NCBI RefSeq assembly: GCF_014203095.1
Contig: NZ_JACHIG010000001.1
Coordinates: 930,001-994,000, forward strand
Direction: 5' to 3'
Length of the DNA: 64,000 nucleotides
Origin: Prosthecobacter vanneervenii
GTDB lineage: Bacteria; Verrucomicrobiota; Verrucomicrobiia; Verrucomicrobiales; Verrucomicrobiaceae
The notes beneath the pieces are model-generated. The model was not told where the DNA came from. It did not search any database and saw nothing but the letters and a program-made list of their open reading frames with translations. The position numbers and the translations under genes were made by a program. Shown here piece after piece: positions 10,190 through 52,782 of the stretch (its first letter is position 1; every line of letters begins with the position of its first letter).

Positions 10190-10308
10190 GGAAGCCGACG
10201 GAGAAGGATGATCTTGATCCCATGCAGGGGGTTTGCGGATGGAGCGGAAGCGCTGGGCGGGGCGGGAGCGTGTGGGATCGGGATGATCCCACTCCTCCTG
10301 AGCGCTGG
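10190..10308. repeat. Dispersed intergenic repeat, copy A
   Basis: This stretch between the efflux cluster and the next gene is closely similar to 33990-34152 and, in part, to 16971-17057. It contains GCCGACGGAG, a GATCTTGATCCC segment, and a perfect hairpin at 10272-10292 (GTGGGATC, loop GGGAT, GATCCCAC). It is non-coding by position and shared with two other intergenic sites. Confidence 0.7.
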
Positions 10309-16970: not shown

Positions 16971-17057
16971 CTCATACCACGATGAGATGAAAGCGAGTCT
17001 GAAGGTGGAAGCACGAGCCGACGGAGGGGGATCATCTTGATCCCCCCCCACCTGCAG
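16971..17057. repeat. Dispersed intergenic repeat, copy B (partial)
   Basis: From CTCATACCACGATG to CACCTGCAG this matches the first half of 33990-34152 with few differences. It includes a perfect hairpin at 17026-17046 (GGGGGATCA, loop TCT, TGATCCCCC). The second half of the element seen in copies A and C is missing. Confidence 0.7.
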
Positions 17058-17253
17058 AGTGAATGTCTATGACATGAAAGAAGGGAGCCGATGTACTTTC
17101 ATGCCATCACATCCACAGGATGCTCTCTGAGAACCTCTTCCTTCCATGAGTTTTCTTCCTGTTCCGTGGGAATCCAATGATCCTGGAGGAATGCAGTGGC
17201 TGGCTTCCCTCATTCAGCGGGGCCGCTCACGAAAAAAATCTCACGCTCTAAAA

Positions 17254-17277
17254 CACACCGACGAAACTGACGAAACC
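17254..17277. repeat. ACACCGACGAAAC repeat, half copy
   Basis: A single arm, CACACCGACGAAACTGACGA plus AACC, follows an A-rich tract similar to that preceding the copy at 17377. The opposing arm is absent. Confidence 0.65.
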
Positions 17278-17376
17278 TCATGCCCCCCGCCAAAAGCGCA
17301 TTTTGCCTCTTTGAGAGCGCATCCCTGGCCGTAGCCAGCCCGGGCTCAGACCGCGAAAAAAAACTGCGCGCGCAAA

Positions 17377-17426
17377 ACACACTGACGAAACTGACGAAAC
17401 CTAGTTTTGTCGGTTTCGTCGGTGTG
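17377..17426. repeat. ACACCGACGAAAC palindromic repeat, copy 2
   Basis: The left arm CACACTGACGAAACTGACGA and the right arm GTTTTGTCGGTTTCGTCGGT flank CCTAG and form a near-perfect palindrome of about 50 bp. Relative to copy 1 the arms differ at a few sites, some changed on both sides. Confidence 0.7.
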
Positions 17427-21950: not shown

Positions 21951-22068
21951 GTAGGGCGCTTGGTCCTCCAAGCGCCGTCGTTCGCAGGCTGATGGGCTTC
22001 GCTGCCGCACATCTGCATTGAGCCTGTTCAAGACCTCGCTCGGCGGGCTGGGGACAGCCCTCCCTACC
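21951..22068. repeat. GTAGGG-type palindromic repeat element, copy 1
   Basis: The element opens with GTAGGGCGCTTGGTCCTCCA and closes with GGGACAGCCCTCCCTACC, giving inverted ends GTAGGG/CCCTAC. It has two perfect hairpins: GGCGCTTGG-TCCT-CCAAGCGCC (21955-21976) and GGGCTG-GGGA-CAGCCC (22045-22060). Both recur in copy 2 at 23758-23916 in the same orientation. Confidence 0.7.
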
Positions 22069-23757: not shown

Positions 23758-23916
23758 GGTAGGGCGGCTGGTCCTCCAGCCGCCGTTGCCCAGCGTGCTG
23801 TGAAATACCAAGTAGGACAACCAGCCGTCGCAGGACATTGCAAACTCCGCTGCTACGACTCATGATTCGCACACGCTTGCCCCTCACTCGGAGGGCTGAG
23901 GACAGCCCTCCCTACC
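23758..23916. repeat. GTAGGG-type palindromic repeat element, copy 2
   Basis: The element opens with GGTAGGGCGGCTGGTCCTCC and ends with GAGGACAGCCCTCCCTACC. The first hairpin, GGCGGCTGG-TCCT-CCAGCCGCC (23763-23784), differs from copy 1 at two paired positions, both compensated. The last hairpin is AGGGCTG-AGGA-CAGCCCT (23892-23909). The interior differs from copy 1 and is longer. Confidence 0.7.
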
Positions 23917-33876: not shown

Positions 33877-34211
33877 GCATGCGGATGACAGCGGGCCTTG
33901 TGGCATCTGCTGATTCATTCGTCAAACAACAGCCCGCAGGAGAAGCGTTTACGAGAACCAGGAATGACGCATTCGATTCTGCGCCCACACTCATACCACG
34001 ATGCGATGAAAACGGGTCTGAAGGCGGAGGCACGAGCCGACGGAGGGGCATCATCTTGATCCCCCCACCTGCAAGGGGTTCGCGGATGTGCGATGGCGCT
34101 GGATGATGCGGGAGCGTGTGGGATCGGGACGATCCCACTCCGCAGAGCGCTGGGTGGCCGCATGGGATACTGGATTTCACCCATGGGACCCGTTTTCAGC
34201 TGTGCGTGGTA
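33877..34211. other. Intergenic region with dispersed repeat copy C
   Basis: Between the terminator and the end of the minus-strand catabolic operon, 335 bp hold the repeat at 33990-34152 and no coding sequence that I can support. Confidence 0.5.
33990..34152. repeat. Dispersed intergenic repeat, copy C (longest)
   Basis: The first half (CTCATACCACGATG to CACCTGCA) matches copy B at 16971-17057. The second half, including GGGAGCGTGTGGGATCGGGA, matches copy A at 10190-10308. The hairpin GTGGGATC-GGGAC-GATCCCAC is at 34118-34138; its stem is identical to copy A and only the loop differs. Confidence 0.72.
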
Positions 34212-37354: not shown

Positions 37355-39819
37355 GGTTGAGCGGGTTTCAAATGTTGCGCGAGGAGTTCCTGCATAGTGG
37401 TGGCGGGCTTCCCATCCTGCGGATGGTGAACCTCGCATGACACGCCGAGAGGCTGCAGCGTGGCCTGGAGCATGAGCGCATGCAGCACGCTGTGGCTCGG
37501 GTCTGTCTGCGGCTGGCCTTTGACGGGAGGCTTGTCGTCTTTGGTGTAAACAACGAAAGCGGGTGGATCGTCTGCGCTGGCGTGGGCGATGGGCGACCAC
37601 CGGCGAATGTCTGCGATGTGCTTTTCACGATCGGCGAGGAAGAGCGGGAATGTTTCCTTGCGTGACTTTGACAGCGGGTAGCCAAAAGCGTGCGCGCCGT
37701 ATTCGCTGTTAGGGATCCATTCGACAAGCTGCTGCGGATCGAAGGAGGCCTGCGGTGCCTTGGTGGCGGTGAAGAGGAGACGGGTGGATTCACGTGCGAC
37801 GGGGTCGGCGCTCTGCGGCTCGGCCATGTCATCGTGCATAGCCAGCCAGAGAGAGGAGCAGCCGCCTGCGCTCACACCGCTGGCGGCGATGCGTGTTTTG
37901 TCGAGATGCCATTCGTCCGCCTTGGAGCGGAGAAACTGCAAGGCACGCGCGGCATCCTGCAGAGGCCACTGGAGCGGCGGCGTGACTTTGGCGGCATTGG
38001 CATCGGCGAGGAAGCGGTAGTTGATCGAAGCGACGGAGATGCCGGCATCGAGAAGGGCGCGGACGTCGAGGTGCTGGTGGATGTCCGTCTTGTCCTGCGC
38101 ATTCCAGCCGCCGCCGTGGATGTAAAACACGACTGGGGTGGGCTTGGTGGATTCGGTGAGCCAGACGTCCATGCTCTGGCGAAAGTGGGAGCCGTAGGGC
38201 AGATCGGTGAAGGTGGCGGGTGTGGCGTCGAGCTTGTCCGTGGCGTACTTTTTCTGCACCTCCGCAGGCGGCATCCAGCCAGTGGGGCGCTGCTCGTCGG
38301 GCGTATAGGCGCAGGTGATGAAGTAAAGGCCATGCGCGGGCAGCTTCTGTGGTGGCACGTTTACCTGCACCTGGGTGAAGCCATCGGCATGCCAGCTCTC
38401 GTAGCCGTCGGCGGCATCTTGTTTCAATGCCGCGCCATTGAGTCGGACCTCGATCTGCCGGGGCTCGCGATAAGGCAGGCGCAGGCGGAAGCCGATGCCG
38501 TGGGAGAAGGAGGCGTCGGTCGTGGCGGCGAGAAGCTGCTCTGGAGTCTGCTCCATGGCGATCTTGAGCTCGGGGCCTGCTTTGATGAAGCGCTCGATCT
38601 CGGTGGCGGAATCTCCCAGCAGATGACGGAAGTCATTGAGGGCGATGGCGTGCTTGGCGGCTGCGGTGGTGGCGACGACGAAGGTCTCGCGGCCCACGGT
38701 CTGCGGATAGAGAAAGCCGAGGGCGAAGTCGCTCTGCTGATTCCACAGCTCCACGCGGCTGGCGCGGCGCTCTGCAGCGGCGCTGCCATAGGCGGTGACG
38801 TAGTGGCCGACGAAGTGGCGCATGCGGTTCACGGGATAACCGGGAGTGCGCTCATCGAGCCACACGCCATTGCCGATGCGCATGAGGCCCTGCATGCGGG
38901 CCACGAGGCTCTGCTCCCAGGCCACCTCCTGCGTGAGCAGCATGGTGTGGTATTTGGCGTAGCCGTAGTGCGCGGAGTAGAAGAGCGGCATGCCGTGCCA
39001 GAGCTTGCGCCCGAGCGGGGCGAGCTCCGGGCCCCAGAAGGTGCGCTGGGCATCGGCCTCAAAACGATCCGAGGGGAATCCGGCTGCGCGTCCGGCCTCG
39101 ATCATCGCCTCCGTCACGCGCCAGTCCCAGGGGCGCAGGGCGTAGTTGGAATACGCACCGCCGGTGACCTCCGTCATTATCTGACCGTGATACAAGCGGC
39201 GTGCGCCGAGCTGCTCGGGCGCGTATTCTTGAAGACCGGTGCCATGCAGATGGGCATGCACATCGGGCTGGTATTCATCGATGACGGAAAGCACTGCGGT
39301 GAGCTCGGGTGCATCCTCCGGTCGGGTGAGCGTGAGGGTCTTCACATCCCACAGCTTGCTGAGACGGCCGCCGCCTGTGTAGGGGTCCACTCCATGCTCA
39401 TTGCGAAAGCGGTCGGTGTAAAACATGGCCAGCGGATTCACGCAGGGCATGACGAGGATGATCTGCTTCTTTCGCGTCTCCACCGCGAGCGGATCATCGC
39501 TCAGACACCACTCCGCAAAAGCCATGGCACCGGTGGTGCCGGTGCGCTCGGGGCCGCTATGCAGCGTGGTGATGAGGCACACCTGCTTGTCCGCAGCGGG
39601 CACGGTGGTGTCGGTGATCTTGAGGAGATAAACGGGCATGGTCTGCCCGCTCATGCCGCGGGACTCCATCGTCATGCGTTTGGGGAACATCTGCCGCCAG
39701 TGGATCAGCGTGCCCACGTACTCATCCCACGTGAGCCGGTGCATGGGCGCGTAGCTTTCCTGAGCGCCGAGCGGCACCAGCGCTGCGAGCAGGCAGAAAA
39801 GAGCAAGGAGGTGCTTCAT
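37351..39819 (-). CDS. Secreted fusion: M14-like metallopeptidase domain plus alpha/beta hydrolase
   Basis: The 822-aa protein has a signal peptide (KHLLALFCLLAALVPLGA). The first 330 residues resemble M14 zinc carboxypeptidases: TTLHSGPERTGTTGAM carries the candidate His and Glu ligands with HxxxE spacing instead of the usual HxxE. VMPCVNPLAMFYTDRF and RNEHGVDPYTGGG follow, then PDVHAHLHGTGLQEY with the likely third His. A linker beta domain lies near 430-500. The C-terminal 300 residues are an alpha/beta hydrolase with VVFYIHGGGWNAQDK and ASGVSAGGCSSLWL (nucleophile Ser in GVSAGG). Start and stop overlap the neighbouring genes by ATGA. Confidence 0.78.
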   Translation of the reverse strand: MKHLLALFCLLAALVPLGAQESYAPMHRLTWDEYVGTLIHWRQMFPKRMTMESRGMSGQTMPVYLLKITDTTVPAADKQVCLITTLHSGPERTGTTGAMAFAEWCLSDDPLAVETRKKQIILVMPCVNPLAMFYTDRFRNEHGVDPYTGGGRLSKLWDVKTLTLTRPEDAPELTAVLSVIDEYQPDVHAHLHGTGLQEYAPEQLGARRLYHGQIMTEVTGGAYSNYALRPWDWRVTEAMIEAGRAAGFPSDRFEADAQRTFWGPELAPLGRKLWHGMPLFYSAHYGYAKYHTMLLTQEVAWEQSLVARMQGLMRIGNGVWLDERTPGYPVNRMRHFVGHYVTAYGSAAAERRASRVELWNQQSDFALGFLYPQTVGRETFVVATTAAAKHAIALNDFRHLLGDSATEIERFIKAGPELKIAMEQTPEQLLAATTDASFSHGIGFRLRLPYREPRQIEVRLNGAALKQDAADGYESWHADGFTQVQVNVPPQKLPAHGLYFITCAYTPDEQRPTGWMPPAEVQKKYATDKLDATPATFTDLPYGSHFRQSMDVWLTESTKPTPVVFYIHGGGWNAQDKTDIHQHLDVRALLDAGISVASINYRFLADANAAKVTPPLQWPLQDAARALQFLRSKADEWHLDKTRIAASGVSAGGCSSLWLAMHDDMAEPQSADPVARESTRLLFTATKAPQASFDPQQLVEWIPNSEYGAHAFGYPLSKSRKETFPLFLADREKHIADIRRWSPIAHASADDPPAFVVYTKDDKPPVKGQPQTDPSHSVLHALMLQATLQPLGVSCEVHHPQDGKPATTMQELLAQHLKPAQP

Positions 39820-40550
39820 GCAGGAGGCGTGGCGGCCACAGCCGTTGCGTAGGCTGTTTTGAGATGCGGATCGGTCTGCGTGTGGCTGCCGCGATAGACG
39901 AGCAGGAGCCCGAGGCGTGAGTGCTCTGTGGTGTTTGGCGCAGAGTGATGAATCGTCTCGCAGTGATGAATGGTGGCGTCTCCGGGGGCCAGGAGGGCGC
40001 AGAACTGCTCGCTGAGCGGCACATCGGACGGATGCGCCATGCCGATGCTGTTTCCGCGCACGCCGCTGGGCCGGGTGGGCAGCATGCCGCCGAGATGTGA
40101 GCCTTTGACAAAGAAGACAGGGCCATTGGCCTGGGTAACCGAATCGATGGCGATCCATACAGTGAGCATGTCCGGCGGGCTCTGGCAGAAGTAGGCGTTG
40201 TCCTGGTGATAGGGCACTCCGGAACCGATGCGCGCAGGCTTGTTGAAAGTCTCCACTCCGACCAGCACCGGATCTCCATGCACCAGCGGAGCCACCAGTG
40301 TGAGGATATCAGCACGTTCGCCAAGACGGCGGAAGTAGGTGCTGTACTTTTCCAGACGCCAGAGATTGCGCACGGTCTTCTCGTCCTTCTCAAAGGTGCG
40401 TGCATCTGCAGGCAGCGCTGCGAGGTCATCTCGGATATAGCGCTCCAGCTCCGCACGCACGGCGGCAATCTCAGCGGCATTGAGAAACTGATGAATCAGC
40501 ACCACGCCATCGCGTTCGTATTCGCCGAGGATTTTGCTGCTGACCTTCAT
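39816..40550 (-). CDS. Phytanoyl-CoA dioxygenase (PhyH) family oxygenase
   Basis: This 244-aa cytosolic protein belongs to the Fe(II)/2-oxoglutarate-dependent PhyH family. The N-terminus YERDGVVLIHQFLNAAEIAAV is characteristic. The iron ligands are likely the HxD in PYHQDNAYFCQ and the late His in CETIHHSAPNTTEHSRLGL, with Arg for 2-oxoglutarate. VTQANGPVFFVKGSHLGG is the usual core strand pair. Known relatives hydroxylate small molecules. As a cytosolic enzyme in an operon mainly of exported hydrolases, it probably processes an imported product. Its TGA overlaps the next ATG. Confidence 0.85.
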   Translation of the reverse strand: MKVSSKILGEYERDGVVLIHQFLNAAEIAAVRAELERYIRDDLAALPADARTFEKDEKTVRNLWRLEKYSTYFRRLGERADILTLVAPLVHGDPVLVGVETFNKPARIGSGVPYHQDNAYFCQSPPDMLTVWIAIDSVTQANGPVFFVKGSHLGGMLPTRPSGVRGNSIGMAHPSDVPLSEQFCALLAPGDATIHHCETIHHSAPNTTEHSRLGLLLVYRGSHTQTDPHLKTAYATAVAATPPA

Positions 40551-40578: not shown

Positions 40579-41949
40579 TCACGGCTTTTTGCCAAGCAGC
40601 TGCTGCATGGCGCCGGTGAGCACCTGCTCGACCTCGGGGGCGACATTGGAGGAAGTGGGACCGGTTTCGTAGCCACCCTCGGGATAGGCGGCAGCGGTGC
40701 CGATGTAGCCGGGGCCGTAGTCGCCGTAGGCGGCCATCATGACGTGGAGGTCCGGGCGCAAGGCCTTGGCGGCGAGCTGGTATTCGACAAAGAGCTCGCC
40801 GGGCAGATGAAGCATGCGCGTGTCTCCGACCTGGAGGCAGGTGATGTCGATCTGATGACCGGCCTTGCTGCGGCGCACAAAGGCGAGCTGGTCGGCAAAG
40901 GAGATGTAGCCCTTGGCGGCGGTGGATTTGAGCTTGGCGATGAGGTCCTCCTCGTTCAGGCGTGGGGAGAGCGGCAGCTTCACCGGCACACTGCCCCAGC
41001 CGATTTCCGCGCTGGTGAGCGGCTGCTTCACAGTCTTGTCGTAGGCCTCGCGCATGCCTGCTGCGAGGCGTGTGGCGAGGATGACGCGATTGGCCTGAGC
41101 GCCGTCGTTGTACTTGCCTGCGGCGACGTTTCCACCTGCGCCATTGAAGTGCACATGCAGCGCGGCGTTCACATCCTGACCGCGAATGAAGCGCGCGATG
41201 CCGGGGAAATCCGGGCTGGGAATGCCGAGGCGGTAGTAGCTCTGCGGATGGCAGGCGTAGCTGGTGAGCACCGCCACGGGCTTGTCGCCATTCCAAAAGC
41301 TGAGCACAGAGACGAGGGGATCGATGAGACCTTCCGGCAGGGAGATCAGTCCTTCGATTTTGCAGGCACTGCCGCGCATGCGGCCCACGCGACCATCGGC
41401 AAGGCGCTCCACGCGGCGGTTGGAGGCGACCTCCTTCACCACGGCCTCGCCATAGCCATAATGAGAGACGGGCTGGGCATTGGGCAATGCCGCGCGGATG
41501 GCATCTGCCGCGCGCTGGATGACCTGACGGTGAAAGGTGCCGTCGAAACGGGTGTAGCCCTGCACGCCGAGTTCCTGGATGATTTTCTCCGCCGTGAAGT
41601 CGCAGCCGGGGGCATCGTGCTGATGCAAGGCATGCACGGCCACGCGGCCCGGCACAGTGCCTGCGGCCTCGGAGAGCGCGGTGCGAAAGGCATCGTGCCC
41701 TTCATTGGCGATGCCGATCCAGTCCACCGCGCAGAGCACGACGGGCTGCGCGGAGCCGAGAATGACGATGCCACGGCAGCGCAGAGTCAGCTCATCCACC
41801 CGCTTCACCGGATCATAGGCCATGGCCGAGCCGAGCGGCGGCGTGGCGTCCACGTCAAAGGTGGCGATGCGCACAGGCTCGGCGGCGCGTGCGGACTGCC
41901 CGAGGCCGAGGGGTGAAAGGAACAAGGCGAGGAGGAGCAGGGCTTTCAT
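40579..41949 (-). CDS. Secreted neutral/alkaline ceramidase-like protein
   Basis: This 456-aa exported protein resembles the neutral ceramidase N-terminal (zinc amidase) domain. The N-terminus is [20 protein letters not shown], then [20 protein letters not shown]. The candidate zinc ligands are in [13 protein letters not shown] and the later [16 protein letters not shown], with [13 protein letters not shown] between them and [13 protein letters not shown]. In Planctomycetes such proteins appear in sulfatase and glycan clusters and are not proven ceramidases. The full C-terminal Ig-like domain of true ceramidases is missing. It lies third from the middle of the operon, 28 bp before PhyH. Confidence 0.75.
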
Positions 41950-41982: not shown

Positions 41983-43206
41983 TCAGCGTGCATGGGCGGT
42001 CTTTACATCACCGAGACCGGTGAACATTTCTTTCCGTGTCTCATTGAAAAGATGCAGGCCGTCCGCACCTGCGGCGTACACTTTGGCGGCGCGGGCCTCA
42101 TACTGCTCGCGTGTGAGAAGCTCGCTGGGTGGCGGCTTGAGCTTGCCTGCGGCGATGAGGCGGTCCTCCTCGGCGGTGCGGTCATGGCCTTTGGTGATGG
42201 CTTCCTCACCAAAGAGCACCGCGCAGCCGCTGCCTTTGGCCATCTGCACAAAGGGGGCGATGTCAAAGTCGTAACCACCGAGGCCATACTGACCCACCAC
42301 GAGGTAGTCGAGCAGGCCTTCCTTGAGCCAGGTGGCGATGTCGCAGCCCCAGGTGGGGTATTTCTGCCAGTCGATGCGCACGGAGAGGCCGAGGTGCTTG
42401 TTCTTGGCCTTGCCAGCTTCATCGAGAATCCGGCGCACCTCGCGCACAAACTGCGTCATGACCTCGTAGCGCAGCGGCACCCAGCGCGGATCATCCTGGC
42501 CCACGGTGGCGGCTTCGACACCGTATCTGGCCTTGAAGGCATCGGCCATGGGCTTCTCAAAGCCGAAGAACACGGGATGACGCTGGAAGTCGAGATTGAT
42601 GCCGTCGATGTCCTGCTGCACAGCCTCGCGGAGGATGCTCAGCTTGAACTCGCGCACCTCGGGAAAGGCGAAGGAGAAGCGGTAGCCGGTCTTGCCCTTG
42701 GCATCGATGATGCGCAGCTCCGGGTGCTGCCACCAGAAAGTGCTGTTGGCGTATTTGGGAAAGCTGCCCTGCCACATGTTTTCCGGGTAGTCTCCGTTCA
42801 TGCGGAGGGAGGCATAGCAGGCCAGCCCGGCCTCGTGGCAGGCGTCCGCGACGATCTTGAGCGTGTTCTCGCCGCCATCGGCCATGCGCTTGAGGGTTTC
42901 ATGCGCCAGCTTGTCGCCACGACGGGGAAACTCCGTCATGCCAGCGCCGATCAGCTCCGTAACTTTGCTGGGGTAGTTGGCGCGGCTGCCCGCGATGATG
43001 CACCACTCCATCACGGCCACCTGGGTGTCCTTGTAGGCCAGCATGGCGTTTTTCAGATCCTCCGCCGTCTTGTAGCGGCCGCTGTGGAAGGCGCTGAAGC
43101 CATCGTCATTCACCACGAGGAGCTTGGTGCCGTGGTGCGGCCTGGGCGGCTCGGCGGCAAAGAGCAGCGGGGCGGCCAGGGCGAGGAGCATAAGATGGCA
43201 TTTCAT
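41983..43206 (-). CDS. Secreted GHL10-like / family 10-like glycosyl hydrolase
   Basis: The 407-aa protein (signal KCHLMLLALAAPLLFAAEP) has a TIM-barrel glycoside-hydrolase-like layout related to GHL10/DUF187 proteins. Segments include LLVVNDDGFSAFHSGRYKTA, AGLACYASLRMNGDYPENMW, GINLDFQRHPVFFGFEKPM and LGLSVRIDWQKYPTWGCDIA, followed by GLLDYLVVGQYG and GADGLHLFNETRKE. The Asp and Glu in the NLDFQRHP and HLFNE segments are plausible catalytic acids but not proven. It starts 4 bp after the aldolase gene ends. Confidence 0.7.
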   Translation of the reverse strand: MKCHLMLLALAAPLLFAAEPPRPHHGTKLLVVNDDGFSAFHSGRYKTAEDLKNAMLAYKDTQVAVMEWCIIAGSRANYPSKVTELIGAGMTEFPRRGDKLAHETLKRMADGGENTLKIVADACHEAGLACYASLRMNGDYPENMWQGSFPKYANSTFWWQHPELRIIDAKGKTGYRFSFAFPEVREFKLSILREAVQQDIDGINLDFQRHPVFFGFEKPMADAFKARYGVEAATVGQDDPRWVPLRYEVMTQFVREVRRILDEAGKAKNKHLGLSVRIDWQKYPTWGCDIATWLKEGLLDYLVVGQYGLGGYDFDIAPFVQMAKGSGCAVLFGEEAITKGHDRTAEEDRLIAAGKLKPPPSELLTREQYEARAAKVYAAGADGLHLFNETRKEMFTGLGDVKTAHAR

Positions 43207-43210
43207 GGCA

Positions 43211-44026
43211 TCAGTAAGTCTTTCCTGCGGGAATGGCGGAGTGGCCGGAGATCTCGCTAAGAACGCTGTCAAACTGCGCGGCGCAGTCGCTGAGGTGGGC
43301 GTGCAGCGCGCCGAACTCGCTGCCGAGCACGACAAACTGGGAGCCCAGCTCGATGATGGTTTTGGCATCGGCTGCGCTGCCTACCGGGCGGCCCCAGGTC
43401 TTGCCATGCTTGCGGCATGCGGCGGCGATTTTTTTCTGCACGTCCATCATCACGGGATCGCTCACAGCAGGTGTGCAGCCGAGGCGCAGGGACATGTCGC
43501 CAGGGCCGAGGAAGAGGACATCCACACCAGGCACGGCGGCGATTTCATCCACCTGCGCAAGCGCGTCGGGGGTTTCGATCTGCGCGACGAGGAAGGTCTC
43601 GCGGTTGGCGGCGTCGGTGTAATCGTCGGGCTTGCCGATCCAGTAGCTGGCATCGCGACCGCCACCGCAGAAGCCGCGATCTCCCAGCGGTGGAAACTTC
43701 ATGGCATTGACCAAGGCGCGCGCCTCGTCCGCACTGCCGACGTGAGGGATCATGAGGCCGGAGGCGCCGTCTTCGAGGAGGCGGTAAAGGCCGTTTTTCT
43801 CCTTGGTCTGCGCACGCCAGACGCAGTCGATGTCCGCCGCGTGGTGGCGGCCCAGCATGGTCTCGGCTTCGCGCGGGTCCCAGACGCGGTGCTCGGCGTC
43901 CAGCCAGATGCCGTCGTAGTGAAAGTGAGCGGCGATGGCCGGGAAGAAGGCGATGGGCGAGCCGGTGCAGCAGATGCGGGCCACCTGGCCGGAGCGGATT
44001 TTAGCGAGGACTTTGGAGCGTCTCAT
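43211..44026 (-). CDS. HpcH/HpaI family aldolase
   Basis: The 271-aa cytosolic enzyme matches class II pyruvate aldolases acting on 2-keto-3-deoxy sugar acids or 4-hydroxy-2-oxo acids. It has HFHYDGIWLDAEHRVWDPRE (with the DxEH ligand segment), ASGLMIPHVGSADEARALV, FLVAQIETPDALAQVDEIAA with the metal-binding Glu, and GVDVLFLGPGDMSLRLGC with the metal-binding Asp. The C-terminus GSQFVVLGSEFGAL completes the barrel. It follows the GDSL gene by 10 bp. Together with RraA and an SDR it suggests a cytosolic aldol cleavage step in the catabolic route. Confidence 0.87.
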   Translation of the reverse strand: MRRSKVLAKIRSGQVARICCTGSPIAFFPAIAAHFHYDGIWLDAEHRVWDPREAETMLGRHHAADIDCVWRAQTKEKNGLYRLLEDGASGLMIPHVGSADEARALVNAMKFPPLGDRGFCGGGRDASYWIGKPDDYTDAANRETFLVAQIETPDALAQVDEIAAVPGVDVLFLGPGDMSLRLGCTPAVSDPVMMDVQKKIAAACRKHGKTWGRPVGSAADAKTIIELGSQFVVLGSEFGALHAHLSDCAAQFDSVLSEISGHSAIPAGKTY

Positions 44027-44036
44027 AGGAAAGGGA

Positions 44037-45236
44037 TCAGGGTTGATGGTGTGCGAGCCAGTCGCAGAGGATTTTGAACGGCAGAGAATGATCGCCGGAG
44101 CGGCGTGCGATCATGGAAAGATCCTGGGCCTGGATGAGGCGACGGGCGAAGGCCTCATGGCGGCTTTCCTCCGGGGTGAGCGCGGGCTTTGCGACCGAGG
44201 GCAGAGCCACCACCACATCCCACTGCTGCGGGCCAAAGCTGAGCGACCAGTTCATGATCCATGAATAATCGTGGTGAAACTGCGCCTGATCCTTCAACGG
44301 AAGATCAGCGGGCACGGCGATGATCACGAGATCCTGCGTCATGCTGCGCACCTTGCGCGCCGAAGCCTCCAGTTGCGCGAGTGACTGGCCTGCGACGGGC
44401 CAGGAGGTGACACTGACCTCCACGCCCGGAGTCAGCTCCTTCAGCGCATTCGCGATGATCTCATCATACGGCGGCATGGCGAGAACCCGCACCGGCTGCG
44501 CGGCCTTGATGCGGGCAAAGACATGCGGCAGCACCGGCGCGGGCGGCCCGATTTTGCGAAGTGAAACCGTCTGCCCGGTGATGGCCTGCGCGAGCGTTTC
44601 GGCGAAGAGCTTGTGACCGGCCATGTTGGGATGAATCGTGTCACTGAGGAGCAGATTCCATTCGGCGGCATCGGCGGCGTGCACGGCCTCGAATGCGGCG
44701 AAGCAGTCGGCCACGGGCAGCGCCTCGTCCTTGGCCACATCGCGGATGGCCTGGGTGAATTCGGCGAGGCGCGCGCACGGGCGCTGCGGAGTCTCGACGA
44801 CGGAATTCTGCGTGCAGAGAAGCACCTCGGCACCGGCCGCGCGGCAGCGTGCGATCATCTCGCGCAGGTTCTTTTTAAAGACATCCACCGGCGTGCCCAC
44901 GAGATCGTTCATGCCAAACATGATCGTCACGAGGTGAGGCTTGCGGGAGAGGACATCGCGGTCGAGACGCTTGAGGCCGCCGGTGGTGGTGTCTCCGCTG
45001 ATGCCCGCATTGTGCACGCTGAGCTTTGCCTGCGGGTGGAGCTGCTGCAGTGCGATCTGGAGCATCTCGGGATAGGCCCGGCGACCGCCGCTGTGATAAT
45101 AGACACCGGTGATGCTGTCGCCGATGCAGACGATGCGCACAGGATCCTGCCCTGCGGCGAGGAGTGCGGCTGTTTTCAGCGGTGCTTCCGCCAGCAGGTG
45201 TGAGCAAACGCAGAGGAGAAGAAGGAGCGTGCGCAT
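44037..45236 (-). CDS. Secreted SGNH/GDSL hydrolase
   Basis: The 399-aa protein has a signal peptide (RTLLLLLCVCSHLLAEA) and a GDSL esterase domain. RIVCIGDSITGVYYHSGGRR (Ser in GDSI, residues 39-42), NAGISGDTTTGGL (Gly), IMFGMNDLVGTP (Asn) and SDTIHPNMAGHKL (Asp/His) give all four SGNH blocks. About 150 C-terminal residues form an extra domain with a second Rossmann-like pattern (VRVLAMPPYDEIIANAL). It would deacylate a carbohydrate or glycoconjugate outside the cytosol. It lies 7 bp after the sialidase gene. Confidence 0.87.
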   Translation of the reverse strand: MRTLLLLLCVCSHLLAEAPLKTAALLAAGQDPVRIVCIGDSITGVYYHSGGRRAYPEMLQIALQQLHPQAKLSVHNAGISGDTTTGGLKRLDRDVLSRKPHLVTIMFGMNDLVGTPVDVFKKNLREMIARCRAAGAEVLLCTQNSVVETPQRPCARLAEFTQAIRDVAKDEALPVADCFAAFEAVHAADAAEWNLLLSDTIHPNMAGHKLFAETLAQAITGQTVSLRKIGPPAPVLPHVFARIKAAQPVRVLAMPPYDEIIANALKELTPGVEVSVTSWPVAGQSLAQLEASARKVRSMTQDLVIIAVPADLPLKDQAQFHHDYSWIMNWSLSFGPQQWDVVVALPSVAKPALTPEESRHEAFARRLIQAQDLSMIARRSGDHSLPFKILCDWLAHHQP

Positions 45237-45243
45237 GGGATCA

Positions 45244-46344
45244 TCAGGGCTGCTTGAGCCAGTCGAGCGTGATGCGGCGAATTCGCAGGCGGTTGAGAGC
45301 GCCCACCTTGCTGTCGCCAGCGCAGTAGCCGATGAGCATGGCATCGCCCACGAAGTGGATGGCGGTGTAGTGGTAGAGACCGTCGGGATCGCTCTCGATA
45401 AGCTTGCGTTTGGGCCAGGTCTTGCCGCCGTCGGTGGAGATGGCGGCGACGTAGGGATTGCGCTTCTTGGGCGGGAACGGGAACATGCCGGAGTGGTCGT
45501 TGTAGATGGCGAGGAGATCGCTGCTTCCTGGCAGACGCTTGATGCTGGCGGGGCCGTTGGGAGATTTCATCTCGGTGGGCACGGGCGGAGAGAAGGTCTT
45601 GCCCGCATCGGTGGAGTAGAAGCCGTACTGCGCGCCCTGATCTGTGCGGCACCAGGAGAAGAGGCCGCCGTCTGCCAGCTCCACCACACCGGGCTCCTGC
45701 AGGCCGCTGCCGCTGCGCACGGCCATGGCCCACCAGCTTGAGGACTCCGTCCAGGTGGCTCCTTCATCATCGGAATAGATCCACATGGCGATGGCGCGTG
45801 CGTCCCAGGATTTGCTGCTCTCGGGGTCGGTGCCGCGTGAGCGGTGAAAGGCGAGCGGGATGACGATGCGGCCCTTGCTGGTCTGGATGACGCGGTCGTT
45901 GTTCATCACGAAATAACCCGGCGCCTGCAGCACGAGCTTTGGCTGGCTCCAGGTCTCGCCTTCATCGGTGGAGATGCGCATGTGCGGGCGGCAGTCGATC
46001 CAGCTATTTTTGATGCAGTAAAACATGGCCAGCTTGCCGCTGGCGAGGCGCAGAAGAGAGACGCTCATCACGTTGTCGCCGCCAGTGTTTTCCACCACGG
46101 TCACAGGCTGGCTCCAGGTGCGGCCCTGGTCGTCTGAATGAATGCGCACGATGCGCGCGGGGCTCTCGTCTCCAGCGCCGCCGTAGAAGTGCGAGTAGCA
46201 GAAGATGATGCGGCCGGAGGCGAGCGTGGCGAAGGAGCCTTCCGAATTGCGCGGGTTGTCCTTGGTGGGATCGAGATTGAGCGTGATGGTGCTGTCCGCA
46301 TGCGCCAGAAGAGCGGCAGTCAGGAAGAGGAGGAGGCGTTTCAT
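45244..46344 (-). CDS. Secreted BNR-repeat sialidase-like protein
   Basis: The 366-aa protein (signal KRLLLFLTAALLAHA) is a sialidase/BNR beta-propeller. Asp boxes are visible as HSDDQGRTWS, STDEGETWS, YSDDEGATWT, STDAGKTFS and STDGGKTWP. These proteins act on sialic acids or related glycosides, or only bind them. The arginine triad and catalytic Tyr/Glu of true sialidases cannot be confirmed from motifs alone, although ESPARIVRIHSDD carries a candidate Arg. It follows the RraA gene by 35 bp and is the first exported protein of the operon. Confidence 0.83.
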   Translation of the reverse strand: MKRLLLFLTAALLAHADSTITLNLDPTKDNPRNSEGSFATLASGRIIFCYSHFYGGAGDESPARIVRIHSDDQGRTWSQPVTVVENTGGDNVMSVSLLRLASGKLAMFYCIKNSWIDCRPHMRISTDEGETWSQPKLVLQAPGYFVMNNDRVIQTSKGRIVIPLAFHRSRGTDPESSKSWDARAIAMWIYSDDEGATWTESSSWWAMAVRSGSGLQEPGVVELADGGLFSWCRTDQGAQYGFYSTDAGKTFSPPVPTEMKSPNGPASIKRLPGSSDLLAIYNDHSGMFPFPPKKRNPYVAAISTDGGKTWPKRKLIESDPDGLYHYTAIHFVGDAMLIGYCAGDSKVGALNRLRIRRITLDWLKQP

Positions 46345-46379: not shown

Positions 46380-47147
46380 CTACCACTCGCCCTGGCGAGA
46401 GAAGCGGGCTTTGAGATTGCGGCCGAACTGGGCGATGGACTGCTCCAGACCGGCGAGCGCCTGCGCGGTGCTGAGACCTTCGCAACTGCGCGCCGCTGGA
46501 ATGACCGTGGTGCATTCGTTTTCATCCATGAAGCGCGCGGCCTCCAGCAGGCCAGGCTGCTCCTCGGGAGGAATGACGAGGAAGCCGTGCTTGTCGGCAT
46601 GGATGAGATCGTCCGGCTTGACGGTGCGGCCAAAGACCTCGACCTCGCAGCCCCAGCGCACGGGGTGGACGTGCGCGTGGCCCACGCAGAGGCGGCGGGC
46701 GAGCGCCTTGAACCCGGCGCTGGTCATTTCATCTAGATCGCGGATGGCTCCGTCTGTGATGGTGCCCACGCAGCCGAGCGCGCGGAACATGTTGGCGCTG
46801 ACCTCGCCCCAGGTGGAGCCAAGCACACGCGGCTTGTCGAGATCCTGCACGACGATGATCTTGGGCCCGGGCACGCTGGCGATGTACTGGCGAAACTCCG
46901 CGCCCGCATTTGGATTGGCGGTGCGGTGGGCTGCATTCGAGGGCTCGATGACGAGGGTGACGGCGTAGCCCACCATGGGGCCCATCTGCGGCATGAAGTC
47001 GTGGGTTTCCTCGATGTTGAAGGCGTCGGCTCCGGCATCGCGCCGGGTGATCTGCTCCCAGCCGTTGTAGATGGTGGGGGTGTTCCAGCGCTTGAGCTGA
47101 AGCAGGTCGCTGTGAGACAGGGGGCGTGCTTTTGCGGTGTCGGCCAT
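46380..47147 (-). CDS. RraA-like family protein (HMG/CHA aldolase-like)
   Basis: The 255-aa cytosolic protein is in the RraA/RraA-like family, which includes 4-hydroxy-4-methyl-2-oxoglutarate/4-carboxy-4-hydroxy-2-oxoadipate aldolases. It has LKRWNTPTIYNGWEQITRRD at the N-terminus, GEVSANMFRALGCVGTITDG with the GxxxAxxAxxxGxxGxxxDG core, IRDLDEM, and DLIHADKHGFLVIPPEE. The aldolase Arg and Asp in the GAIRDLDEM region are kept. It is the first gene of the ten-gene operon, 33 nt downstream of the conserved regulatory element. The start at 47147 was chosen for the family N-terminus. Confidence 0.85.
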   Translation of the reverse strand: MADTAKARPLSHSDLLQLKRWNTPTIYNGWEQITRRDAGADAFNIEETHDFMPQMGPMVGYAVTLVIEPSNAAHRTANPNAGAEFRQYIASVPGPKIIVVQDLDKPRVLGSTWGEVSANMFRALGCVGTITDGAIRDLDEMTSAGFKALARRLCVGHAHVHPVRWGCEVEVFGRTVKPDDLIHADKHGFLVIPPEEQPGLLEAARFMDENECTTVIPAARSCEGLSTAQALAGLEQSIAQFGRNLKARFSRQGEW

Positions 47148-47180
47148 GAGGTGAAAACAGGCGGTTGAAACGATTTGCCA

Positions 47181-47208
47181 CAAGGCTGCGTTTCTGGTCT
47201 GTTGTCCA
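47181..47208 (-). promoter_or_regulatory. Conserved 28-nt regulatory element upstream of the RraA operon
   Basis: On the plus strand it reads CAAGGCTG, five variable bases, then CTGGTCTGTTGTCCA. It lies in the 67-bp gap between the divergent RraA operon and the regulator gene, 33 nt before RraA and 6 nt before the regulator ATG. It matches 49123-49150 at 25 of 28 positions. The TGG...CCA core suits a GntR- or LacI-type operator, and its overlap with the regulator start suggests autoregulation. Confidence 0.65.
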
Positions 47209-47214
47209 AACCAG

Positions 47215-48300
47215 ATGCAAACCGACGCTTCATCCAGCCCGCGCCTGCCGCAGCGCGTCTCCCTCGTGACGCAGACGGCGCAGAGCCTGCGGGAGTCCAT
47301 GCTGGCCGGACACTGGCAGGGGCACCTGCCCGGAGAGCGCGAGCTGTGCGCACGCCTGCAGGTAAGCCGCCACACGCTGCGTGCGGCGCTGCAGATGCTG
47401 CAGCGGGAAGGCACGCTGGAGGTGGCGGACCGGCAGCGGCGGCGCATCAAGACCGCCACGGGAAAAACGAAGACGTCTCACTCGCACGTCATCGCGCTCA
47501 TCTCCCCGCGCCCGCTGCAGGAGATGTCGCAGTCCACGGTGGTGATGGTGGATGAGCTGCGTGACCAGCTCTCCCGCGTGGGCTTCAGCTTCGAGATTCA
47601 TGTGAGCACCGCGTGCTTTTCCTCCAAGCCCGCCCGCGCGCTGGAGGCGCTGACCACGCGATCTCCCGCAGCAGCGTGGCTGATCTTTGGCGCGCTGGAG
47701 CCGGTGCAGAGCTGGTTTGTGCGGCATCAGCTGCCCAGCCTGGTGGTGGGATCGTGCGCACCGGGGGTGAGCCTGCCGTCCATCGACACCGACTACCGCG
47801 CACTCTGCCGCCATGCGGGCGGCATGCTGTGCGCCAAAGGGCACCGGCACATCGTCCTCCTGCGGCCCAGCGGTGACTACGGTGGCGACCTGCAGAGCGA
47901 GCAGGGGCTGCGCGAGGCCCTGGCCGCGAGCCATGCGCCGCCACCACAGGTCATCCTGCATGACGGCACCGCCGCCAACATCTGCGCGCTGCTGGACAAG
48001 GCGCTGCGCTCCGCCCGCCCGCCCACGGCCTTTGTGGTGGCGCGCGCCATCCATGTGCTGACGGTGATGATGTTTCTGATGCAGCGCGGCAAGCGCATCC
48101 CGCAGGACATCGCAGTGATCTCCCGGGATGACGAAACCTTCATGCAGCATGTGGTACCCAGCGTGACGCGCTACGCCCCTGGCAGCGGCCAGTTTGCCCG
48201 CAACGTATGCAAGGCTGCTCGCCAGCTGGCAGAGACCGGTGGCCTGCCGCCCAAAGCCATACGACTGATGCCGAAGATGATTCGCGGCGAGACGCTGTGA
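47215..48300 (+). CDS. GntR-type winged-helix regulator with LacI-like ligand-binding domain
   Basis: The 361-aa protein has an N-terminal winged helix (residues about 17-75: TAQSLRESMLAGHWQGHLPG, ERELCARLQVSRHTLRAALQ, MLQREGTLEV). A periplasmic-binding-protein-like domain follows, of the LacI/XylR kind (VIALISPRPLQEM, AWLIFGALEPVQSWFVRHQL, HIVLLRPSGDYGGDLQSEQG, IAVISRDDETFMQHVVPSVT). This AraR-like architecture responds to sugars or sugar acids. It is divergent from the RraA operon and convergent with the SDR gene (2 bp between stops). The shared 28-nt element on both sides makes it the probable local regulator. Confidence 0.85.
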   Translation: MQTDASSSPRLPQRVSLVTQTAQSLRESMLAGHWQGHLPGERELCARLQVSRHTLRAALQMLQREGTLEVADRQRRRIKTATGKTKTSHSHVIALISPRPLQEMSQSTVVMVDELRDQLSRVGFSFEIHVSTACFSSKPARALEALTTRSPAAAWLIFGALEPVQSWFVRHQLPSLVVGSCAPGVSLPSIDTDYRALCRHAGGMLCAKGHRHIVLLRPSGDYGGDLQSEQGLREALAASHAPPPQVILHDGTAANICALLDKALRSARPPTAFVVARAIHVLTVMMFLMQRGKRIPQDIAVISRDDETFMQHVVPSVTRYAPGSGQFARNVCKAARQLAETGGLPPKAIRLMPKMIRGETL

Positions 48301-48302
48301 TC

Positions 48303-49088
48303 TCACCAAGAGGTCCAGCCGCCATCCACGGCCAAATTTTGACCGGTGATGAATGAGGAGGCATCGCTGAGGAGAAAGGTCACGGCACCGGCGATCTCCT
48401 CCGCCTGCCCCACACGGCCCAGCGGCACTTTTTGAGCGAGGCGCTGCACGAAGTCCGGCTGCTGCACCTGGATGGAGGGATTGGGAAAAGGGCCGGGAGA
48501 AATGCTGTTGCATCGGATGCCCTGACGGCCCCAGTGGACGGCGAGGTAGCGCGCGAGCTGCTGCACGCCCGCCTTTCCCACGCCGTACTCAACGGGGTTG
48601 GGATTCATCGGAGCGGCATACACCGAGGGGTCTGGTGACACGCTGCCATACATGCTGGAAAAGAGCACCACACTTCCCCTGCCCTGCTCCGCCATGTGCC
48701 GCCCCACAGCACGTGCCAGCGTAAAGGTGGCGGTAAGGTTGCCGTGATTGGCCATGTCAAAGTCCGCCGCAGTCAGATCGTCAAAGCGCTTGGCCGTCGA
48801 GGCATAAGTCATGACTACCAGGCCCTGCGGCACGCCGTGGGCGGCGATGCGCGAGTCCACAAAGGCCTCAACGGCGGCGATGTCTGCCGCATCCAAGGAG
48901 GCTGCCTCCACCTGCGTCTGCAAGCTTTTGGCAGCCAGCATTTCCTCCGCCCGTCCTGGCAAATCCACGCAGAGCACGCGGGCCTGCATTTCCGCGAGCT
49001 GGGCCACGACCGCCGCGCCGAGATAACCGGCGCCGCCAAAGACCCAGATTGAGCGTCCCTTGAGATCAAAAGGATGTGGGGAAGACAT
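48303..49088 (-). CDS. Short-chain dehydrogenase/reductase
   Basis: The 261-aa SDR has the NAD(P)-binding motif GGAGYLG (residues 18-24), VDLPGR for cofactor specificity, catalytic Ser in VLFSSMYG, and YGVGK (168-172) as the YxxxK active site. The end LLSDASSFITGQNLAVDGGW is the usual SDR C-terminus. The classical NAG motif reads TYAS here, an unusual variant. Start 49088 gives a normal length; ATG at 49100 is in frame. A perfect 7-bp hairpin (49089-49109) abuts the ATG. The conserved 28-nt element is 34 nt upstream, so it probably belongs to the RraA-operon regulon. Confidence 0.88.
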   Translation of the reverse strand: MSSPHPFDLKGRSIWVFGGAGYLGAAVVAQLAEMQARVLCVDLPGRAEEMLAAKSLQTQVEAASLDAADIAAVEAFVDSRIAAHGVPQGLVVMTYASTAKRFDDLTAADFDMANHGNLTATFTLARAVGRHMAEQGRGSVVLFSSMYGSVSPDPSVYAAPMNPNPVEYGVGKAGVQQLARYLAVHWGRQGIRCNSISPGPFPNPSIQVQQPDFVQRLAQKVPLGRVGQAEEIAGAVTFLLSDASSFITGQNLAVDGGWTSW

Positions 49089-49122
49089 GAGCCGTATCAT
49101 GCACGGCTCATGCCTGCCTACT

Positions 49123-49150
49123 CAAGGCTGTGCTACTGGTCTGTTGTCCA
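49123..49150 (-). promoter_or_regulatory. Conserved 28-nt regulatory element upstream of the SDR gene
   Basis: It matches 47181-47208 at 25 of 28 positions, in the same orientation and at almost the same distance from the start codon (34 versus 33 nt). Here CTGGTCTG is also mirrored by CAGACCAG at 49154-49161, giving a perfect ACTGGTCTG/CAGACCAGT inverted repeat. Confidence 0.65.
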
Positions 49151-49195
49151 TGCCAGACCAGTGCGCAGCCTCAGCGTCAGGCGGATGAATCATCG

Positions 49196-50507: not shown

Positions 50508-51503
50508 ATGATTTTTCTAGCCGAACTGCCCGCACCCAGCCGCATGGGGGACGTCCTCATGGCTTTCCTGAGCATTGTCTTTGAAGGAGCTCCGTACATC
50601 CTCATCGGCACGGTCTTTTCCGGAATCATCGACGCCTTCCTGCCCGCCAAGCTGCTGGACCGCGTGCTGCCCAAGAGCAAGCTGCTGTCCACCCTGATCG
50701 CCGGCTTCCTCGGGCTCGTCTTTCCGGTGTGCGAGTGTGCGGTGGTACCGGTGATCCGCCGTCTGGTGCAGAAGGGGCTGCCGCTCTCCTGCGCTGTCAC
50801 CTACATGCTCTCCGCCCCGATCATGAACCCCATCGTGGCGATCAGCACGATGACGGCCTTCAAGGAATTCCAGGGCCTGGGCCTCTCCACAGCGGGAAAT
50901 GCCACCATGACGATCGCGCGCCTCTCGCTGGGCTACCTGGTGGCGGTGATCGTGGGTCTGGTGGTGCTGCGCTTCAAGCCGGGCCAGGTGCTGCGACACA
51001 GCATTGCCAACAAGATCGAAAACGCCGGGGCTGAAGACGCCCATGACCACGGCCACACGCACGCCCCGGCCGCCGGCTTCAATGGCAAGCTGGTGCACGC
51101 CATGCGCAGCTCCATGCGCGACTTCCTCGATACAGCGATGTATTTCGCCATCGGCGTAGTCATCACCTCCGCCTTCAACACGCAGATCAACCAGTCTCTG
51201 CTGAACACCGTGGCGGGCAATGACTGGCTGGCCATTCCGTCCCTCATGGGACTGGCCATCGTGCTCTCCCTCTGCAGCACCTCGGACGCCTTCATCGCCG
51301 CGCCGATGACCGCCTTCTCCATGGCCGCCAAGCTGGCTTTCCTCGTCTTCGGCCCGATGATGGACATCAAGCTCCTCTTCATGTACTCCGGCGTCTTCCA
51401 GCGGAAAGTGGTCGTATATCTGCTGGTGGGGCTGTTTGTGCTGATCGGCCTTCTCAGCAGCCCTTGGATGGGCCTGATCCAACTCCTTCACACCAAACCT
51501 TAA
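50508..51503 (+). CDS. DUF318-family permease (YraQ-like)
   Basis: This 331-aa protein has about eight membrane helices, including LSIVFEGAPYILIGTVFSGI and LIAGFLGLVFPVCECAVVPV. The CEC pair (Cys75, Cys77) is typical of this permease group, which includes putative Cu/Zn exporters. The central loop is His-rich (EDAHDHGHTHAP). The second half repeats the fold (DFLDTAMYFAIGVVITSAFN, LSLCSTSDAFIAAPMTAFSM). The partner DUF1980 gene follows after 7 bp. Direction and substrate are not proven. Confidence 0.82.
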   Translation: MIFLAELPAPSRMGDVLMAFLSIVFEGAPYILIGTVFSGIIDAFLPAKLLDRVLPKSKLLSTLIAGFLGLVFPVCECAVVPVIRRLVQKGLPLSCAVTYMLSAPIMNPIVAISTMTAFKEFQGLGLSTAGNATMTIARLSLGYLVAVIVGLVVLRFKPGQVLRHSIANKIENAGAEDAHDHGHTHAPAAGFNGKLVHAMRSSMRDFLDTAMYFAIGVVITSAFNTQINQSLLNTVAGNDWLAIPSLMGLAIVLSLCSTSDAFIAAPMTAFSMAAKLAFLVFGPMMDIKLLFMYSGVFQRKVVVYLLVGLFVLIGLLSSPWMGLIQLLHTKP

Positions 51504-51510
51504 TCCTGCC

Positions 51511-52782
51511 ATGAGTGCCACCCGCACCCTCGTTCACCTTCTCAGCGTCGCCATGCTCCTGCTGTGGGGCGGAGTGCTGCTGTACTTTTACATCAGCGGT
51601 CGTCTGAGCAACTACCTGCCACCGGACGGCATCTTCCGCCCGATGGTGCTCATCTCAGGCATCGGCCTCTGTGTGCTGGGCCTCTTCAATCTGCTGACCA
51701 TGGGAGCTGAAGACGTGGGCTGCGAGGGCCACGACCACGGCCACTCCCATGATGAGCATGACCACGACCACAAGGAGTGCTGCGGCCACGACCATGATCA
51801 TGCCCACGATCACGCGCACAAGGACGGCTGCTGCGGTGGCCATGATCACGAGCACAAGCAGGCCGCCTGCGACCATGATCACGGACACAAACACGAGCAT
51901 GGTTGCTGCGGAGGCCATGACCATGGACACGAGCACAAGAACGAACACGGCTGCTGCGGGCATAATCACGGACATGAAGGCCATGCGCACGGCATTCTGG
52001 AAGAGAGCTCCTGGCCGGGCCGCATCGTGGTGCTGCTGATCCTGGCCGCCCCGCTCTCCTGGGCTGCTCTTTCCACCCCGGACCGCTACAGCCAGAACGC
52101 CATCGTAAACAAGGGCCTGTACGATCCGAACTACAAGGACACCTCCCGCGCCGACCAGTTCTCCCTGCAGAACAAATCCAAGACGGCAGCTCAGCCTGCG
52201 ACTGACACCATCGCCGCCACAGCGCCCAAGGCTTCGGACCTGCCACCCGCTGCCACCACCAAGCCAGCCAGCACGCCTCCTCCGGGAGTCGCTGCAGCCT
52301 CTGCCGCTGCCGAAGAAACCAAGACACCGCCCAAGAACATCCCTGCCCCGGCACAGGCCTCCAAGAGCTACGGCACCTTCACCCTGGAAGACCTCAAGAA
52401 GCAGGTGCCGCAGAGCAAGGAGGGCAACTTTATCCTCGAAGTGCCCGAGCTCTACTACACTGGCGGCGACCTGGAAGTACAGAAGGTCCTGACTGGCCAG
52501 ATGGTCGAGACCGTGGCGCAGATCCTGCCTGAAAAGGTGAACAACGCCGACGGCCACCGCATGCGCATCTTCCGCATGCTGGTGCAGTGCTGCGCCGCCG
52601 ACGCCCGGCCCTACTCCGTGCCTGTCGATTTCGGCAAGAAAGCCCCCGAGTTTAAAGACATGACCTGGGTCAAAGTGGTGGGCAAGATGAACTACAAAAA
52701 GGAAGGCAACCAGACCGTCCCCATCATCGAAACCACCAAGGTTGAAGAAACCACCGCGCCGGACAATGCGATGATTTATTGA
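51511..52782 (+). CDS. DUF1980/TIGR03943-type permease partner with long His-rich loop
   Basis: The 423-aa protein has two N-terminal membrane helices (LVHLLSVAMLLLWGGVLLYF and RPMVLISGIGLCVLGLFNLL), then a very long His/Cys-rich loop (residues about 75-155) with repeated HDHEH/CCGGHDH units. A third helix (IVVLLILAAPLSWAALS) and an exported C-terminal domain follow; the latter has VQCCAADARPYSVPVDFG and a Pro/Ala linker. This matches the TIGR03943 partner of DUF318 permeases. The His-rich loop is unusually long and could bind many metal ions before transfer. It is co-transcribed with the permease. Confidence 0.83.
   Translation: MSATRTLVHLLSVAMLLLWGGVLLYFYISGRLSNYLPPDGIFRPMVLISGIGLCVLGLFNLLTMGAEDVGCEGHDHGHSHDEHDHDHKECCGHDHDHAHDHAHKDGCCGGHDHEHKQAACDHDHGHKHEHGCCGGHDHGHEHKNEHGCCGHNHGHEGHAHGILEESSWPGRIVVLLILAAPLSWAALSTPDRYSQNAIVNKGLYDPNYKDTSRADQFSLQNKSKTAAQPATDTIAATAPKASDLPPAATTKPASTPPPGVAAASAAAEETKTPPKNIPAPAQASKSYGTFTLEDLKKQVPQSKEGNFILEVPELYYTGGDLEVQKVLTGQMVETVAQILPEKVNNADGHRMRIFRMLVQCCAADARPYSVPVDFGKKAPEFKDMTWVKVVGKMNYKKEGNQTVPIIETTKVEETTAPDNAMIY

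Follow-up and report, generated by a model that had tools for sequence, protein, structure and literature searches.

Two 21-bp sites in the window, that is, in the whole stretch of 64,000 nt of Prosthecobacter vanneervenii DNA that was analysed, probably act as operators for the product of the regulator gene that separates them, and together they would make up a local, autoregulated two-site regulon. The probability of this reading, which is based on sequence comparison, is estimated at about 0.82. Candidate operator 1 (47194-47214, plus strand, CTGGTCTGTTGTCCAAACCAG) lies directly before the regulator gene, its last base being the base that precedes the ATG. Candidate operator 2 (49136-49156, plus strand, CTGGTCTGTTGTCCATGCCAG) lies 47 nt before the ATG of an SDR oxidoreductase gene.

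The 21-bp Dyad

Both sites are imperfect dyads. Operator 1 is composed of CTGGTCTG, TTGTC and CAAACCAG, with 7 of 10 symmetric pairs, and operator 2 of CTGGTCTG, TTGTC and CATGCCAG. Right after operator 2, an extra ACCAG half-site is seen at 49157-49161.

The first-pass annotation had described a 28-nt element in two copies (47181-47208 and 49123-49150, read on the plus strand), placed at equal distances from the start codons of divergent units. Direct alignment of the two 28-mers confirmed 25 identical positions of 28, and the longest unbroken identity is the reported 15-mer, CTGGTCTGTTGTCCA. The distances are also correct: 33 nt to the ATG of the RraA-like gene (47147), 34 nt to the ATG of the SDR gene (49088) and 6 nt to the ATG of the regulator gene (47215). 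The first 28-mer consists of a spacer, a TTGWG box and most of operator 1, and the second is its counterpart; beyond the dyad, the identity extends by eight common bases, CAAGGCTG. The repeat itself thus stands, but not as a symmetric unit, as the dyad is 21 bp long and extends rightward beyond the 28-mers. Because the 21-mer is delimited by both symmetry and conservation, the 28-mer was rejected as the working unit.

The pair is unique in the genome. With up to one mismatch allowed, only two copies of the shared 15-mer are present in the 6.66 Mb assembly; with up to three allowed, the 21-mer likewise has only two. A scan of the same genome with a degenerate palindrome pattern, which is its own reverse complement, found 534 sites with up to two mismatches versus 172 in the backwards control, and nothing was singled out.

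The Regulator and the Surrounding Genes

The regulator (47215-48300, plus strand) is a protein of 361 aa with a GntR winged helix at residues 19-74 and a LacI-type sensor at residues 205-360. Its N-terminus belongs to the GntR family (PF00392, E 6.4e-12, 45.4 bits against a cut-off of 27) and its C-terminus is a GalR/LacI-type domain (PF13377, E 2.2e-20, 73.8 bits against a cut-off of 26.5). LacI-family chains in PDB align to it within residues 121-359, and a structure model of low confidence (mean pLDDT 58) has three helices and two strands at residues 17-78. The FadR and HutC subfamilies are marked by an FCD/FadR-C or a UTRA domain at the C-terminus. Neither was found in this protein at an E-value threshold of 0.001, where only GntR and Peripla_BP_3 were detected.

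On the minus strand, an operon with gaps of 4-35 nt starts with the RraA-like aldolase family gene (46380-47147, PF03737, E 2.7e-20). It is followed by genes for a BNR-repeat (sialidase-like) protein (45244-46344, PF13088, E 2.5e-35), a GDSL/SGNH esterase (44037-45236, PF13472, E 2.9e-32), an HpcH/HpaI aldolase (43211-44026, PF03328, E 6.1e-25), a GHL10 glycosyl-hydrolase-like protein (41983-43206, PF02638, E 5.1e-13) and further genes. A 456-aa protein without a Pfam match (40579-41949) and a PhyH-type dioxygenase (39816-40550, PF05721, E 3.9e-32), both on the minus strand, are likely to be encoded in the same operon, because the gaps are short.

For the SDR gene (48303-49088, minus strand, PF13561, E 1.1e-46), a start at 49088 rather than at 49100 is supported by close relatives, which keep ATGTCCTCT there and have no upstream ATG. 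The description of divergent units holds for the RraA-like gene, which diverges from the regulator gene, but not for the SDR gene, which is convergent with it, tail to tail. The nearest named NCBIfam models to the aldolase are HpaI and GarL, and the SDR resembles enzymes of sugar-acid metabolism (gluconate 5-dehydrogenase and KduD). As all these scores are far below the curated cut-offs, any substrate of the pathway is a guess.

Conservation in Relatives

The genus search covered 48 genomes including the window's own, 45 of which contain a match to the regulator at E 1e-30. Relatives that could be identified by name comprise uncultured Verrucomicrobia, Prosthecobacter MAGs, Brevifollis gellanilyticus and a single MAG with the label Akkermansia. 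Orthologs with 64% identity or more are present in 15 other genomes; one is a fragment (G010), leaving 14 testable.

In 13 of the 14, the dyad touches the ATG of the regulator gene. The exception is G007, with 48 nt between the dyad and the likely ATG. Operator 1 differs from the window's site by at most one base in nine of the 14: it is identical in seven (G009, G015, G022, G023, G026, G030 and G031) and one base off in two (G036 and G019). The other five (G034, G041, G011, G013 and G007) have a diverged dyad at that position. When one mismatch is allowed, the near-exact site is found at 16 places in 10 of the 48 genomes, one or two per genome, versus none for the backwards control, and all of these places precede the regulator or the SDR gene of this locus.

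On the SDR side, nine of the 12 genomes with a visible start, the window included, have a dyad 45-47 nt upstream of it. The distance is 47 nt in the window, G009, G015, G022, G026 and G030 and 46 nt in G031; more diverged dyads lie at 46 nt in G011 and at 45 nt in G013, both counted to an ATG one codon inside the extrapolated start. In G036, G019 and G010, the SDR gene is present and no dyad with at least seven of eight letters is found before it. No SDR match was found on that side of the regulator within the fetched stretch in G023, G034 and G007, and the contig of G041 ends on the SDR side, which places it outside this count.

An operator shared by the operon and the SDR gene, which had been considered very plausible from the window alone, is supported by these counts. 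The expected persistence of the element in relatives was borne out at the regulator and mostly at the SDR gene; in three of the 12 genomes, operator 2 is lost while the gene order is kept, an outcome named in the first-pass annotation as speaking against its reading. The pattern of an autoregulated local regulon, i.e., the same site conserved at the regulator and at a target, is nevertheless present. No rraA match was found beside the regulator at three loci, L071 (G036), L081 (G013) and L082 (G007). There, the BNR gene comes first in the place of rraA and the regulator retains its upstream dyad, which indicates that the tie to the operon is a tie to whichever gene comes first.

Half-Site Spacing in the Regulator Family

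The analysis of the regulator family in the genus included 80 of 90 matches; the window's own locus, two pieces in G046 and seven matches of ~30% identity were left out. One fragment without the 5' end (L083) was excluded from the counts of operators and residues, leaving 79. TGGT-N11-ACCA is exact upstream of 50 of these 79 regulators and matches at seven or more of the eight letters upstream of 59, while 0.12 and 1.57 are expected, respectively, from 3873 control stretches. Each of the other TGGT/ACCA spacings from 0 to 25 is exact at most once among the 79. TGGT-N4-ACCA is never exact and reaches seven of eight letters in 10; the GT-N4-AC spacing expected of an AraR-type chimera is thus not the one at the loci of this family. 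The regulator dimer would read TGGT half-sites 11 bp apart.

The frequency of the dyad depends on the identity to the window's regulator. Counted in a slightly longer upstream stretch, at least seven of eight letters are matched in 13 of 14 loci at 60% identity or more, 38 of 39 at 45-60%, eight of nine at 39-45% and five of 17 below 39%. The N11 rule therefore weakens among the most distant members. Of 22 matches in other genera of the family, 20 were fetched; 13 of these 20 loci reach at least seven of eight letters and 11 are exact.

The same class of dyad, with other centres, is seen before paralogous regulators. A case in the same genome is L084 (contig C5, ~459 kb), where a paralogous regulator of 49% identity lies beside a paralog of RraA of 75% identity and the dyad is GTGGTCATTTCAGCTGACCAC. 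With this locus, the genome contains the design twice.

Promoter Signals and the Direction of Regulation

A candidate promoter of the regulator gene, recognized by its resemblance to the consensus, is TTGAAA-16-TGCGTT at 47165-47192 (plus strand), and its -10 box ends 1 nt before operator 1. At the same place, G034 and G019 have TTGAAA-16-TATGCT. The rows of this comparison of relatives were picked by an operator string, so identity counts for its operator columns are partly by construction, and they were disregarded. A promoter profile was obtained from 47 non-redundant loci, to which 78 rows were reduced; one dyad locus with less than 75 nt upstream was left out. The shuffles keep base composition only. 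On the regulator side, a single nucleotide separates the end of the highest -10-like peak from the operator, and the highest -35-like peak is 17 nt upstream of it; both exceed the 95% shuffle level. Another -10-like peak, almost as high, is found 22 nt away from the operator.

Bound at operator 1, the regulator would cover the start of its own promoter. Because its own start point would be covered, autorepression is likely, judging from the promoter position.

The -10 box of the regulator gene at 47187-47192 is a weak TGCGTT in this strain versus TATGCT, CATGCT or CATGAT in several relatives, and the promoter may be weakened here.

In the outward direction, candidate -35 boxes lie 10 nt beyond each operator on the minus strand: TTGTGG at 47178-47183 for the rraA operon and TTGAGT at 49120-49125 for the SDR gene. 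Inspection by eye showed TTGTG on the rraA side in eight of the 10 relatives whose rraA can be seen next to the regulator (TTGTT in G019 and TTGGT in G011), and TTGAG on the SDR side in all six relatives with a close operator 2. From the operator to the ATG of rraA there are 46 nt in the window and in six relatives, some counted by eye, 47 nt in G019 and G011, and 43 nt in G034 and G041 (the latter by eye). The two putative promoters look alike: the operator, 10 nt, a TTGWG box, ~30 nt and the ATG. In the 47 loci, the -10 signal on the divergent side (op+27) equals the 95% shuffle level, and the TTGWG box at op+11 scores 1.94 against a 95% shuffle level of 1.96. The strongest TTGACA-like signal on this side is found at op+25, with its neighbours, and exceeds the shuffles; it may be the -35 region of the regulator gene read on the other strand. 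As the outward -10 signal is only at the shuffle level and the -35-like signal is off the TTGWG box, both repression and activation are possible.

The regulator would also control two outward promoters, that of the RraA operon from operator 1 and that of the SDR gene from operator 2; a metabolite of the pathway, probably a sugar acid or a 2-keto acid, would release or switch it. Repression at the two outward promoters, suggested by the precedent of the family, has slightly better than even odds. Activation, suggested by the position of the operators upstream of the putative -35 boxes, falls slightly short of even odds.

Activation is most fully expressed as a sub-case of the operator reading, in which the bound regulator activates the RraA operon and the SDR gene from upstream of -35 and represses itself, in the manner of CcpA. 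This version is a serious, although tentative, proposal. It would account for the nearly constant distance between operator and ATG at the two promoters, for the same orientation of an asymmetric site at both with TTGWG 10 nt beyond, and for the weakness of the putative -10 boxes, and it would follow a rule, with exceptions, described for CcpA (PMC3463425). The profile argues in the opposite direction, as the divergent -10 signal does not exceed the shuffles and the strongest -35-like signal is elsewhere. Moreover, in the paralogous loci L109, L112, L113 and L115 no more than 34-39 nt separate the dyad from the divergent ATG, so that the promoter would be pushed into the operator.

The window and five relatives have 1942-2125 bp between operators 1 and 2 (calculated by hand). 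These six separations have no common helical phase, and DNA looping is therefore neither favoured nor disfavoured.

Agreement between Residues and Operator Bases

Glu41, Arg52, Thr54 and Arg56 are invariant in 100 regulators (the window's, 79 from the genus and 20 from other genera). The dyad is present in 78 of the 83 regulators with Arg42 and in one of the 17 without it; Arg42 changed once on the tree. In the 79 dyad-bearing regulators, the state of residue 53 agrees with the inner bases: Pro with A7/T15 in all 79, Arg/Lys with C8/G14 in 78 and His/Gln with G8/C14 in 75. DNA-contact residues described in PMC4494728 include Thr46 of FadR and His64 of AraR, to which residue 53 corresponds by our own matching of the numbering.

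In a quick tree that left the DNA-binding domain out, the residue 53 classes changed 1-3 times. With so few changes, tests of independent pairs cannot reach significance; the sign tests were not significant, and all three Pro pairs point in the same direction. The residue-base evidence that the encoded regulator would bind the dyad is good but not conclusive.

The regulator had been offered as the binder by inference in the first-pass annotation. The relatives back this proposal, through the presence of the dyad class at paralogous regulators and the agreement at residue 53. That another regulator is the binder is improbable, as the site and the regulator travel together and the dyad classes match the contact residues of the adjacent protein. 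Starting from the encoded regulator as binder, a more specific picture is a verrucomicrobial GntR-LacI lineage whose dimers would read half-sites spaced 7-8 bp more widely than those of AraR or FadR, in which residue 53 sets the inner bases and one dimer would repress its own gene and activate outward catabolic promoters at a nearly fixed distance. This complete picture is speculative and rather unlikely.

Origin of the Repeat

The repeat could instead be a duplicated piece of a promoter, carrying a common -35 (TGGACA on the minus strand) and -10 but no operator. TGGACA matches TTGACA at five of six positions, and the eight common bases beyond the dyad would fit such a duplication. The hexamer is, however, CGGACA, CGAACA, TGGATA or TGGGCA in several relatives in which the dyad arms are kept, and at paralogous regulators the dyad reappears around other centres. 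TGGACA was rejected as a shared -35 because of this loss, and the promoter-piece explanation is a shade less probable still than that of another binder.

From base composition, ~0.011 direct pairs of 28-mers as similar as this one are expected in the window. There are 14 diagonals reaching 25 of 28, this pair included; 10 of the other 13 were inspected and resemble repeats of simple, dispersed or within-gene type, and none of them is at these genes. Despite these 14 diagonals, chance similarity or a neutral duplicate is hardly credible, as the sites are kept at the same places in relatives whose regulator protein differs by ~18%.

Other repeats were observed in the window. Near-identical dispersed stretches (25-27 of 28) at 10193-10292, 16971-17049, 17248-17405 and 33990-34138 are apparently an interspersed repeat family. 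A 34-base repeat at 22034-22067 and 23882-23915, 1848 bases apart, has three differences. Histidine- and cysteine-rich repeats at 51749-52040, in a protein adjoining a membrane-protein-like ORF (50508-51503), suggest metal handling.

Comparison with Known Systems

As a mode of control, a local autoregulated regulon of a GntR/LacI-type regulator is ordinary; the spacing of the half-sites is unusual. In open-licence full text, no paper on operators of GntR-LacI-type regulators in Verrucomicrobia was found. Through the dyad, ~80 related regulators and the genes they target become easy to approach, and it can be tested directly how half-site spacing and the choice of bases are set when a GntR domain is joined to a LacI-type body.

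The closest known architecture is that of AraR of Bacillus subtilis, described as a GntR domain with a LacI-type sensor (PMC4494728, PMC4218819), which controls its own gene and catabolic genes through palindromic boxes (PMC4218819). The recognition helix Arg-His-Thr-x-Arg is also shared, as R52, H53, T54 and R56 here and R63, H64, T65 and R67 in AraR (PMC4494728). The operators differ: the AraR box, given as At(T/A)tGTaCGTAcaa(A/T)T (PMC4218819), is GT-N4-AC, whereas the dyad here is GT-N11-AC. The genes also differ, with RraA-like, HpcH aldolase, esterase, BNR and SDR families here in place of arabinose genes.

CcpA is, like the regulator, a LacI/GalR-family protein. Its cre sites upstream of -35 are described as activating, with exceptions, the position deciding the sign (PMC3463425). 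Unlike the regulator here, CcpA is global and has a different DNA-binding domain and site.

The TGGT half-site resembles the operators of the FadR subfamily (TKGT/ACMA boxes), and the regulator has Arg at the positions of Arg35 and Arg45 of FadR. By the description in PMC4494728, FadR-subfamily sites are GT-N3-AC, sometimes with a spacing of 2, and the C-terminal domain is alpha-helical, unlike the N11 spacing and the LacI-type sensor here. The N4 spacing described for HutC (PMC4494728, PMC4218819) is likewise different. YtrA-subfamily operators are described as a long motif in which GT and AC lie well away from the centre (PMC4494728), and the N11 spacing is closer to these long motifs than to the boxes of AraR, FadR or HutC.
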